A DNA stretch of 44,893 nucleotides from a virus: positions 1 through 44,893 of the IMG/VR virus record IMGVR_UViG_3300031576_000103. One strand, written 5' to 3'. The notes below the pieces were generated by a model. It did no database searches, had not been told where the DNA came from, and was given only the letters and a program-made list of their open reading frames with translations. Each line of letters opens with the position of its first letter. The first letter of the stretch is position 1. Below are positions 28,751 through 31,421 of the stretch, one piece after another. Both the position numbers and the translations under genes were made by a program.

Positions 28751-29253
28751 ACGTGGTGGGGCTCGACCTGTCTCTGACCGCGACCGGGTACGCGGACGGC
28801 ACCGGCGCGGTGGTCCTGGTGCCAGCCCGGGGTCTGGTCGGTATCCCGCGCCTGGAGCACATCCTGGAGAAGATCCGGCAGCGCGCCGACGAGTGGCCCT
28901 CGACCACCGTGGTCGTCGTCGAGGGCTACGGGTTCCACTCGCAGAAGGCCGTCGCCCTGGGCGAGCTCGGCGGCGTGGTGCGCCTGTTCCTGCACACCGA
29001 AGGCCACGCGTGGGTCGACGTCGCACCGGCGATGCTCAAGAAGTTCGCGACCGGCAAGGGGAACGCTCGGAAGCCCGAGATGCTCGACGCCGCGATCCGG
29101 CGCTGGGCCTACGAGGGTCCGGCCGACGACAACGCCGTCGACGCCTACCTGCTCCGGTGCATGGGGCTCGTGCAGTACACCCGCCAGCACGCACCGGGCT
29201 ATGCCTACGAGGCGATCGAGAAGATCGCGTGGCCGGAGCCGGTGTCGGCATGA
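28747..29253 (+). CDS. RuvC-like Holliday junction resolvase
   Basis: 168 residues from ATG at 28747. RNase H-fold motifs: D7 in VVGLDLSLTATG, E59 in VVVVEGYGF, and D127, D128 and D132 in PADDNAVDAYLL. The helix LEHILEKIRQRADEW and DVAPAMLKKFATGKGNARKP are typical of phage RuvC-like enzymes. It would resolve branched replication or recombination intermediates so the terminase can package. It overlaps its neighbours by ATGA on both sides. Confidence 0.85.
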   Translation: MNVVGLDLSLTATGYADGTGAVVLVPARGLVGIPRLEHILEKIRQRADEWPSTTVVVVEGYGFHSQKAVALGELGGVVRLFLHTEGHAWVDVAPAMLKKFATGKGNARKPEMLDAAIRRWAYEGPADDNAVDAYLLRCMGLVQYTRQHAPGYAYEAIEKIAWPEPVSA

Positions 29254-29558
29254 CGCAGAAGGCCAGTTCCGCGACAGAGGTTCCGGCACACGAGAACTGC
29301 TCGCGCTGTGGTCGGCCCTACGCTGAGCACGCCCACTCAGGGGCGGAATACATCGAGCGCTCGAACGCCGTGGCGCGATTCGCGGCTCACGCTTTCCGCC
29401 GGCAGCCGGCCAGTCGGTTCTACCCGGAAGGATTGCCCCACCTGGGTAGGCGCGAGGACAAGTGGTCCGGTGCGCGCTGGTGGCCAGACGGTCGGTGGGA
29501 TGGGAGCAGCCTCGTGACGCAGAACATCCCTTCCGCGACAGGCGGTGCCCGTGCATGA
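29250..29558 (+). CDS. Small CxxC protein carrying two start-associated dyads
   Basis: 102 residues, ATG overlapping the resolvase stop. MTQKASSATEVPAHENCSRC, then GRPYAEHAHS gives a CxxC...H knuckle, then helices (YIERSNAVARFAAHAFRRQ) and a Trp-rich segment (DKWSGARWWPDGRWDGSS). The last 15 residues (VTQNIPSATGG...) repeat the N-terminal MTQKASSAT pattern, because a second copy of the DNA dyad lies here at 29516-29539. The gene may once have ended earlier and been fused to a leader of the methyltransferase. Function unknown. Confidence 0.55.
   Translation: MTQKASSATEVPAHENCSRCGRPYAEHAHSGAEYIERSNAVARFAAHAFRRQPASRFYPEGLPHLGRREDKWSGARWWPDGRWDGSSLVTQNIPSATGGARA
29252..29275 (+). repeat. Start-associated dyad 1
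   Basis: Arms GACGCAGAA and TTCCGCGAC around the 6-base loop GGCCAG. The first arm starts within the ATG of the 102-residue gene. Seven of nine arm positions can pair. One of five copies between 29.25 and 30.84 kb. Confidence 0.8.
29516..29539 (+). repeat. Start-associated dyad 2
   Basis: Same arms (GACGCAGAA, TTCCGCGAC), loop CATCCC. It begins in a GTG at 29514 that opens a 14-codon frame ending with a TGA overlapping the methyltransferase ATG. Confidence 0.8.
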
Positions 29559-30583
29559 GCACCTTCGGCTCCCTGTTCAGCGGGATCGGTGGCCTCGACC
29601 TTGGCCTCGAGCGGGCGGGCTGGGAGTGCCGCTGGCAGGTGGAACTCGATGAGTGGTGCCGAGCAGTGCTCGCTCGACATTGGCCCGGAGTCCCGAGATG
29701 GGACGACGCGACGACGTTTCCTCCCGACGCCGAACACGGGGGGAATGGATGGGGGAAGCAACAGTCGGCGAGCGTGGGTGAAGCGTGGCGGGTGGACCTC
29801 ATCGCCGGAGGATTCCCCTGTCAACCCGTCTCCCTCGCCGGCAAGCGCCGAGCACAAGCCGACGACCGATGGCTCTGGTCAGAGTTCGCCCGTATCGTTC
29901 GCGTTCTACGACCCCGATACGTCCTCGTGGAGAACGTTCCAGGGCTCCTTGCTGGACACGGAGGCATGGGGGACGTCCTTGGGGACCTGGCCGCGTGCGG
30001 GTATGACGCGGAGTGGGATTGCATACCGGCTGCGGCCGTCGGTGCCCCTCACCTCCGTTACCGAGTCTTCGTGGTTGCCCACTCCGACGAGGCAGAGCTA
30101 CGGCTACAACCAGCAGGACTCACCGGGAGCAGCGGTGCGACCGAGCTTGCAGACGATGGCCGCGAGGGGCATGTGGCCGACACCGAACGTGCCGGGCCGG
30201 ACCCTCAAGGGCGCACAGGACCGGAGGCGCGACGGGGGTCCGTCTTTGGCCCAAGTCCAGCTCAACTCGGGAGCGACCAGTGGCTCGTTGAACCCGACGT
30301 GGGTCGAGTGGCTCATGGGGTTCCCCGCCGGGTGGACCGACTTAGGGGACTCGGCAACGCCGTCGTCCCGCAGGTCGCGGAGTGGATCGGAAGACGCCTG
30401 ATGGAAGGCCGTGTGACGCAGAACTGGCCTTCCACGTCAGCCACGTGCGCCATCGAGGGCTGCGAGCAGGACTCGTTCGTCGGCGTCGGTGATCCGGCCA
30501 GGTGGGTGTGCTTTGAGCACTACGAGGCGTACCTGGCCCGAGCCCGTGAGGTCATGGACGCGCTGCGGGAGGCCACCTCGTGA
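29555..30583 (+). CDS. C5-cytosine DNA methyltransferase with C-terminal Zn-like extension
   Basis: 342 residues. All main motifs are present: FGSLFSGIGGLDLGLERAG (I), Cys89 in GGFPCQPVS (IV), ENVPGLL at 126-132 (VI), RYRVFVVAH near 169-176 (VIII) and LRGLGNAVVPQVAEWIGRR (X). The frame then continues without a stop through MEGRVTQNWPST into CAIEGCEQDSF and WVCFEHYEAYL, a C..C..C..H zinc-like module that looks like a separate small gene (possible starts ATG 30401 or GTG 30413). From about 29880 its third-position GC drops, because another frame is apparently coding there. It likely protects phage DNA from restriction. Confidence 0.85.
   Translation: MSTFGSLFSGIGGLDLGLERAGWECRWQVELDEWCRAVLARHWPGVPRWDDATTFPPDAEHGGNGWGKQQSASVGEAWRVDLIAGGFPCQPVSLAGKRRAQADDRWLWSEFARIVRVLRPRYVLVENVPGLLAGHGGMGDVLGDLAACGYDAEWDCIPAAAVGAPHLRYRVFVVAHSDEAELRLQPAGLTGSSGATELADDGREGHVADTERAGPDPQGRTGPEARRGSVFGPSPAQLGSDQWLVEPDVGRVAHGVPRRVDRLRGLGNAVVPQVAEWIGRRLMEGRVTQNWPSTSATCAIEGCEQDSFVGVGDPARWVCFEHYEAYLARAREVMDALREATS
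29589..30401 (+). CDS. Overlapping +1-frame gene inside the C5 methyltransferase
   Basis: A 270-codon open frame wholly inside the methyltransferase gene. It has FLPTPNTGG, then AEHKPTTDGSGQSSPVSFAF, then YDPDTSSWRTFQ, LGTWPRAGMTRSGIAYRL, LPTPTRQS, MWPTPNVPGRT and NPTWVEWLMGFPAGWTDL. I recognise these phrases from stand-alone Trp-Pro-Thr-Pro-rich phage proteins near methyltransferases, but cannot verify here. Between about 29882 and 30215 its third positions are G/C in 92 of 110 codons counted by hand, against 72 of 110 in the methyltransferase frame. The start is uncertain (ATG 29589 or 29649). Its TGA overlaps an ATG (TGATG). Function unknown. Confidence 0.45.
   Translation: MASTLASSGRAGSAAGRWNSMSGAEQCSLDIGPESRDGTTRRRFLPTPNTGGMDGGSNSRRAWVKRGGWTSSPEDSPVNPSPSPASAEHKPTTDGSGQSSPVSFAFYDPDTSSWRTFQGSLLDTEAWGTSLGTWPRAGMTRSGIAYRLRPSVPLTSVTESSWLPTPTRQSYGYNQQDSPGAAVRPSLQTMAARGMWPTPNVPGRTLKGAQDRRRDGGPSLAQVQLNSGATSGSLNPTWVEWLMGFPAGWTDLGDSATPSSRRSRSGSEDA
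30415..30438 (+). repeat. Start-associated dyad 3
   Basis: GACGCAGAA, loop CTGGCC, TTCCACGTC. It begins in GTG 30413, in frame with the methyltransferase and with the Zn-like extension that follows. The change to GTC restores one pair lost by the A at position 5. Confidence 0.8.
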
Positions 30584-30816
30584 CGCAGAACCGGAGTTCC
30601 ACGACCGAGGAGTGGGCCGTGTGGTGGCACCGCACGGACGACCGTGGCATGGACATCCCCGAATGCGTCGACCGTCTCACGGAGGCTGAGGCCCGCAGCC
30701 TCTACAGCGAGTGCCTGGATCGGCCGGAGCTCCACTTCATCCGCCTCATGCAGCGGTGGATCGAGCACTCGAGGTGGGAGGAGATGGCCTCCCGGCCAGT
30801 AGGGGGTCCGTTGTGA
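30580..30816 (+). CDS. Small protein behind a start-associated dyad
   Basis: 78 residues, GTG at 30580 overlapping the upstream TGA. It begins MTQNRSSTTEEWAVWWHRTD, then GMDIPECVDRLTEAEARSLY and ELHFIRLMQRWIEHSRWEEM. Helical and Trp-rich with no known motif. The first 8 codons belong to the repeated dyad. The stop overlaps the GTG of the MT-A70 gene. Role unknown; the position between two methyltransferases suggests an accessory to DNA modification or host interaction. Confidence 0.5.
   Translation: MTQNRSSTTEEWAVWWHRTDDRGMDIPECVDRLTEAEARSLYSECLDRPELHFIRLMQRWIEHSRWEEMASRPVGGPL
30582..30605 (+). repeat. Start-associated dyad 4
   Basis: GACGCAGAA, loop CCGGAG, TTCCACGAC, beginning in GTG 30580 of the 78-residue gene. 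Confidence 0.8.
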
Positions 30817-31421
30817 CGCAGAACCCGCGTTCCGCGCCTCGGTACCGGACGATCGTCGCGGACCCACCGTGGCGCTACGAGAACGACCGGGGGACTCAGA
30901 CCCGGAGCATCCGGAGCCGCAAGAGCACGACCGTTGCGGGGCACTACCCGGTCATGGACAACGCCGAGATCGCGGCGCTTCCGCTGGGAGAGCTGGCGGA
31001 CGCCGAGTGCGCGTTGTACCTGTGGGTGACGAACCCCCGCATCTTCGGTCACGTCAACCGTCGACGGGATCCCATCTCTCCTATCGACATGGTGGAGCGC
31101 TGGGGGTTCCGCTACGTCACGTTGCTCACCTGGGTGAAAACGGGGCCGCCTGGGATGGGCTTCGCGTTTCGCGGGCACACGGAGCACGCCCTGTATGCCG
31201 TGAAGGGCACCCTGTCGATCCCAGCCGCGCGGCGAGAGTCCAACGTGGTCGTGGCTCAGCGACGCGCGCACTCGCAGAAGCCCGATGCGTTCTTCGACCT
31301 GGTCGAGCGGGTCTCTCCGCCTCCGCGACTCGAGTTGTTCGCCCGGCGGCAGCGGCTCGGCTGGGACACGTGGGGCAACGAGGCGCTGGAGCACGTGGAG
31401 TTGGTGATGCCTCAAGTCTGA
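30813..31421 (+). CDS. MT-A70 family adenine DNA methyltransferase
   Basis: 202 residues from GTG at 30813 overlapping the previous stop. The catalytic DPPW lies at residues 17-20 (TIVADPPWRY), followed by NAEIAALPLGELADAECALY then LWVTNPR, WGFRYVTLLTWVKTGPPG and GHTEHALYAVKG. HSQKPDAFFDLVERVSPPP and RLELFARRQRLGWDTWGNE give the typical C-terminal region of MT-A70 enzymes. It would methylate adenine N6 in phage DNA, complementing the C5 enzyme. The N-terminal MTQNPRSAP comes from the start-associated dyad. Confidence 0.88.
   Translation: MTQNPRSAPRYRTIVADPPWRYENDRGTQTRSIRSRKSTTVAGHYPVMDNAEIAALPLGELADAECALYLWVTNPRIFGHVNRRRDPISPIDMVERWGFRYVTLLTWVKTGPPGMGFAFRGHTEHALYAVKGTLSIPAARRESNVVVAQRRAHSQKPDAFFDLVERVSPPPRLELFARRQRLGWDTWGNEALEHVELVMPQV
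30815..30838 (+). repeat. Start-associated dyad 5
   Basis: GACGCAGAA, loop CCCGCG, TTCCGCGCC, beginning in GTG 30813 of the MT-A70 gene. Arms are constant in all five copies while every loop differs. Confidence 0.8.

Follow-up and report, generated by a model that had tools for sequence, protein, structure and literature searches.

Two reading frames of one phage gene probably encode the two subunits of a single C5-cytosine DNA methyltransferase

The viral DNA analysed here (the window, which is the whole stretch of 44,893 nucleotides of IMG/VR record IMGVR_UViG_3300031576_000103) contains a C5-cytosine DNA methyltransferase gene in which the same DNA, read in two frames, very probably encodes the two subunits of one enzyme. 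The large protein read in frame 0 is called alpha, and the protein read in the +1 frame is called beta. Alpha would fold as the catalytic domain, with AdoMet binding, the PCQ nucleophile, ENV, motif VIII and motif X. Beta, which would start inside alpha, would give the missing motif IX and may also provide the small domain that reads the DNA and recognizes the target. The two chains would have to assemble as a heterodimer to methylate DNA, and the likely use of such an enzyme would be self-modification of the phage against host restriction. On the best reading, the closest type is a two-subunit C5-methyltransferase like M.EcoHK31I; we infer that both chains are translated, assemble and methylate DNA.

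The earlier note had described a second frame of 270 codons inside the methyltransferase gene, and this frame is present as a +1 ORF at 29589-30401 with a GTG start. The +1 frame is free of stops from 29559, which is immediately past the methyltransferase ATG (29555). The compositional claim made for this region also holds on recount: between 29882 and 30215, third positions are G or C in 73 of 111 codons of the methyltransferase frame and in 92 of 111 codons of the +1 frame, at most one codon from the figures given before, and the 31 of 35 codons at the gene start are the same. All the phrases quoted from the +1 translation are found there. The gene upstream ends at 29558, with its stop and the alpha start sharing bases (ATGA), an arrangement that suggests translational coupling. 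The features of the pair are collected in Table 1.

Table 1. Positions of the alpha and beta features in the window, with the evidence for each.
Feature	Position	Strand	Evidence
alpha, predicted C5-cytosine DNA methyltransferase large subunit, 342 codons	29555..30583	+	PF00145, phrog_363, AlphaFold model vs M.HhaI
beta, putative +1-frame subunit	29649..30401	+	phrog_1008, 340 overlapping homologues, selection tests
alpha motif I FGSLFSGIGG, 5' of the conserved part of beta	29564..29593	+	conserved in alignments A2 and A4
alpha motif IV, catalytic PCQ	29816..29824	+	P88, C89 invariant
alpha motif VI, ENV	29930..29938	+	E126, N127, V128 invariant
alpha residues 184-265, place of target recognition domain and motif IX in one-chain enzymes; predicted disordered	30104..30349	+	
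beta YDPDTSSWRT, overlaps alpha motif VI	29907..29936	+	synonymous-codon identity excess, alpha codons 111-135, median z 8.75
beta LPTPT segment	30075..30089	+	T113, P114 nearly invariant
beta WPTPN segment	30174..30188	+	translation and beta alignment
beta LNPTWVEWLMGFPAGWTDL, motif-IX-like segment	30288..30344	+	M191, G192, P194 invariant; synonymous constraint; hhalign
alpha motif X LGNAVVPQ, beyond the conserved core of beta	30350..30373	+	M.HhaI 299-318 profile match; hhalign E=2.2e-4

Alpha consists of motifs I-VIII and X and has no motif IX. The PF00145 model matches alpha (E=6.8e-38) at residues 3-183 only, and phrog_363 matches it at 1.4e-76. The AlphaFold model of alpha aligns with M.HhaI over 186 residues (Z 23.3, rmsd 1.9 A); its catalytic core and motif X helix are confident, and the region between them is predicted disordered, with pLDDT of about 36-51. 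The alpha profile matches residues 9-178 of M.HhaI, which hold motifs I-VIII, and, weakly, residues 299-318, which hold motif X, and skips the stretch between. An hhalign comparison with 25 one-chain enzymes likewise gives two blocks, at 2.5e-40 and 2.2e-4, and leaves template columns 195-338 unmatched. The motif IX pattern occurs in none of 70 alphas and in 80 of 95 betas. One-chain enzymes such as M.HhaI and M.HaeIII share the catalytic fold and motifs I-VIII and X with alpha, but they have the target recognition domain and motif IX in the same chain and no overlapping beta.

The strongest conservation in beta is found in the segment LNPxWVEWLMGFPxGWTDL, whose M, G and P are invariant in 95 sequences. 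In the window, the C-terminal end of beta with this segment occupies the expected place of motif IX, which in M.HhaI has the form LHPRECARVMGYP. The best hhalign match of beta puts the motif-IX-like segment on motif IX of the one-chain C5-methyltransferases, weakly (E=0.066). The phrase WVEWLMGFPAGW had been taken for an alternative reading of the motif IX-X region, but it is the motif-IX-like segment itself, and motif X of alpha lies just beyond. Each beta codon begins with the last two bases of an alpha codon, so the alpha text RVAxGVPxRVDRL mostly shadows the beta segment, and RVAHGVPRRVDRL is largely a shadow of WVEWLMGFPAGW. The corresponding part of alpha is poorly conserved and has no predicted order, so beta probably also supplies the small domain that reads the bases.

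Beta has no Pfam, NCBIfam or PADLOC match. The family phrog_1008, named "DNA methyltransferase", matches the beta of the window with E=1.5e-29, and all 95 members scanned match. The model of beta is poor (pLDDT 61, pTM 0.29); Foldseek finds no match for it in the PDB, the beta profile matches none of the solved structures, and in BFVD the Foldseek matches with E below 0.001 are three phage proteins.

Beta is linked to truncated methyltransferases. In 24 genomes chosen as beta-holding, which were searched for PF00145, beta (at least 50 bits) is found on none of the 38 C5-methyltransferases with both PF00145 halves and on 31 of the 32 with the N-terminal half only (Fisher p=4e-19, for genes sorted by hand by their match ranges and loci that are not all independent). 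In six actinobacterial loci (L302, L305, L309, L311, L312 and L317) the alpha frame itself holds the motif-IX segment, which follows motif VIII and reads FVEWMMGLPxGWVT, as in LNPRFVEWLMGLPAGWVT, with LGNGVVPQQ after it; the N-terminal part of beta in the same loci, with repeated LPTPT units, stays in the +1 frame. The identification of beta as the bearer of motif IX comes from the split between full and truncated enzymes and from this actinobacterial alpha-frame motif, and not from the hhalign value alone. The earlier note held that the function of the +1 protein is not described, but it can be inferred: this evidence points to the motif-IX-bearing subunit of a split C5-methyltransferase.

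The alternative that beta is a separate phage protein, such as an anti-restriction factor or a regulator, which merely shares the DNA, is improbable. It would agree with the lack of resemblance to any solved fold and with the N-terminal part of beta kept in actinobacterial relatives whose alpha has motif IX. This last observation suggests that beta does more than supply motif IX. However, beta accompanies only alphas without the C-terminal half of the Pfam model (31 of 32, against 0 of 38 complete enzymes), its most conserved segment matches motif IX of the one-chain relatives in both place and pattern, and none was found away from such methyltransferase genes in the enlarged set of loci described below.

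The +1 protein has tblastn matches in mycobacteriophages, cyanophages, phages of Gordonia, Microbacterium and Lacticaseibacillus and further phages, and each match lies on a methyltransferase gene. The +1 protein alignment gave 80 viral and 80 genome contigs, and the methyltransferase alignment gave 80 more. In all of the 252 loci first fetched, the beta and alpha profiles overlap and the offset is always +1; in these loci, the +1 frame stays open for a median of 240 codons, and the GC content ranges from 41% to 75%. In the enlarged set, from which 70 mixed C5-methyltransferases are left out, 340 of the 341 loci with an alpha-family match have an overlapping beta, and the sole exception (L331) came from a DNA pattern unrelated to the gene. 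The genome loci span Actinomycetota, Pseudomonadota, Bacillota, Planctomycetota, Bacteroidota, Synergistota and one archaeal contig, among others. The +1 phrases had also been held to mark a separate phage protein family; this family is found only inside methyltransferase genes, and phrog_1008 already carries the name of a methyltransferase. The absence of homologues outside methyltransferase loci counts only against a separate family, and the proposal of an overprinted gene is left standing by it.

A wider reading is possible, although we hold it with some doubt. A whole DNA-reading half would lie in the +1 frame on top of its own catalytic half; this arrangement would be deep and widespread in phages and prophages (many bacterial phyla and one archaeal contig), and motif IX would have moved between the frames in Actinobacteria, so that one-chain and nested two-chain enzymes would interconvert by frame changes.

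Prophage copies of the gene are present in 68 chromosomes of E. coli; four were inspected, and all of them contain beta and have an annotation for alpha alone. In Mycobacterium phage Llama (L003, 2221-2980), both frames shift at one place, as by a single indel, and the gene is annotated as two methylases, which suggests that the enzyme of the Llama cluster is lost.

Selection acts on both frames. Against a profile of relatives from which the window was left out, the +1 frame of the window scores 193.5, and 5000 synonymous recodings of the methyltransferase gene have a mean score of 51.6, a standard deviation of 14.7 and a maximum of 135. With profiles made from the other loci, the beta score is above all 100 synonymous shuffles in 204 of 205 loci (median z 7.5), and no shuffle reached the observed beta score in 58 non-redundant loci picked by alpha alone. 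The reverse test, in which beta is kept fixed and alpha is scored, gives a median z of 11. The agreement of synonymous codons in alpha has a median z of 0.34 before beta, of 4.8 to 8.9 over motifs IV-VIII, of 45.8 at its peak over the WVEWLMGFP segment of beta and of 1.5 after it, under a null that ignores relatedness and for which the flanking segments are the internal control. In 146 close pairs, the beta dNN/dNS is 0.53 (95% 0.49-0.57), which means that changes to both proteins are rarer than changes to alpha only; the ratio falls to 0.28 when the second half of the overlap is taken alone and is 0.81 (0.68-1.0) in the control region upstream. For alpha, which is constrained as well, dNN/dSN takes values of 0.28 within the overlap and 0.12 upstream of beta. 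Purifying selection is therefore not limited to the methyltransferase frame, and the nesting, recoding, synonymous-constraint and dNN/dNS tests all support the earlier proposal that the +1 frame is an overprinted gene, and show it to be under selection.

The candidate starts of beta are ATG 29649, ATG 29745, GTG 29778 and GTG 29589, and its conserved part begins near 29800. ATG 29649, with AGGTGG six bases upstream, is the best candidate in the window by the Shine-Dalgarno measure, and ATG 29745 agrees with the length of beta in the relatives. Near the beta start, Shine-Dalgarno-like sequences accompany 67 of 142 in-frame ATGs compared with 13 of 55 out-of-frame ATGs from the same region (p=0.002), and beta is presumably translated from a start of its own.

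Programmed frameshifting, in which ribosomes would slip from alpha into the +1 frame after motif VIII and produce a chain with motifs I-VIII and IX, is very unlikely. The parts of such a chain would come in the order seen in one-chain enzymes, and the motif IX of the actinobacterial relatives in the alpha frame also fits it. However, beta is constrained over motifs IV-VIII of alpha, which precede any slip site that would be of use, and its reading must therefore begin further upstream. Ribosomes would have to slip once more to recover motif X, and the enrichment of Shine-Dalgarno-like sequences is at the in-frame ATGs of beta.

It is hardly credible that the +1 frame is a shadow ORF, open and seemingly conserved only through the conservation of alpha and the GC-rich DNA: conserved alpha motifs such as ENV do constrain the +1 text, and when the amino acids and codon usage of alpha are preserved, 106 of 5000 recodings still have a +1 frame of at least 280 codons, so that open length was rejected as weak proof of beta in the window, but the shuffles almost never reach the real beta score, the excess of synonymous constraint is confined to the overlap, the beta dNN/dNS is well below 1 there and near 1 upstream, and the +1 frame is also open in loci with 41-50% GC.

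The preferred reading, a nested two-subunit enzyme, resembles known systems. Lee and colleagues reportedly found in 1995 that the small chain of M.EcoHK31I (176 aa) comes from a second frame within the gene of the large chain (309 aa) and that activity in vitro needs the two together. Such a nesting of the small gene in another frame of the large one is observed here. M.EcoHK31I is a C5-methyltransferase of two polypeptides, in which the large chain has motifs I-VIII and X and a predicted target recognition domain and the small chain has motif IX only (PMC3404938). The division of motifs between the large chain (I-VIII and X) and the small chain (IX, here the motif-IX-like segment) is shared by M.EcoHK31I, M.EaeI and the pair described here. 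In contrast, M.EcoHK31I belongs to a restriction-modification system that recognizes YGGCCR, whereas this gene is from a phage and no partner restriction gene was seen beside the locus, and the target recognition domain predicted in the large chain of M.EcoHK31I (PMC3404938) corresponds to an alpha region that is predicted disordered here, which speaks against the part in target recognition proposed for beta. The M.EcoHK31I sequence was not found in the phages, plasmids and E. coli genomes searched, in part with a composite beta query built from a consensus and not a natural protein, and the likeness described here is one of layout. The plasmid and E. coli searches gave only enzymes of prophage type or from phage-plasmids. 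A Paracoccus YGGCCR enzyme from the literature is an m4C enzyme and is not relevant.

M.AquI is also one C5-methyltransferase made by two polypeptides, as proposed here, and its second chain holds the distal variable region and motifs IX and X (PMC3404938). The split seen here is of another type, with motif X in alpha, and the genes differ from those of M.AquI in being nested in different frames.

The +1 proteins of phrog_1008 and of some annotated inner genes are the same protein, nested in the same kind of gene, but they are named "DNA methyltransferase" or hypothetical, with no stated role. Annotated pairs are gp34/gp35 of Escherichia phage K1G and, in Paenibacillus phages, gp61/gp62 of Leyra and gp62/gp63 of Lily ("g62 internal gene"); XFactor_67 of a Mycobacterium phage is likewise an annotated inner gene. 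The inner ORF has an annotation in several phage records of GenBank/RefSeq, but most of the records inspected annotate a single frame. The inner genes of a few phages and the phrog_1008 family are therefore already known. No described overlap in phage cytosine methyltransferases was found in the literature searched, and three points are apparently undescribed: the extent of the nesting, the selection measured for the two frames, and the variant in Actinobacteria whose large frame holds motif IX.

Many phage and prophage cytosine methyltransferases, which are annotated as one protein, probably need two, and in hundreds of loci the subunit with the missing motif IX may be beta. Cloning such a gene in recoded form, or without the internal start, would silently kill the enzyme. 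Long overlaps on the same strand are usually suspected to be artefacts, and the hundreds of divergent copies with a clean selection signal make this pair usable as a reference case for methods of overlap detection.

A gene for a predicted MT-A70 adenine methyltransferase (PF05063, E=2.1e-27) is located close downstream, at 30813-31421; modification by the phage may thus extend to adenine as well as cytosine.

The repeat RTGACGCAGAA-N6-TTCC occurs in five copies, at 29250, 29514, 30413, 30580 and 30813, over or near start codons, which is five in 1.6 kb against 0.02 expected. It forms an imperfect dyad and gives the N-termini MTQK/VTQN, and it looks like a start-associated operator or mRNA element. 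Elsewhere, it is found in three viral contigs, with one copy in each. The core of alpha comprises residues 1-286, and residues 287-342 resemble a second small gene read on in frame from GTG 30413. This tail ORF (30413-30583) opens with the start-associated repeat (VTQNWPSTSATCAIEGCEQ...) and has a sub-threshold match to PF04236; it is either fused to alpha or forms a gene of its own that starts at the internal GTG.
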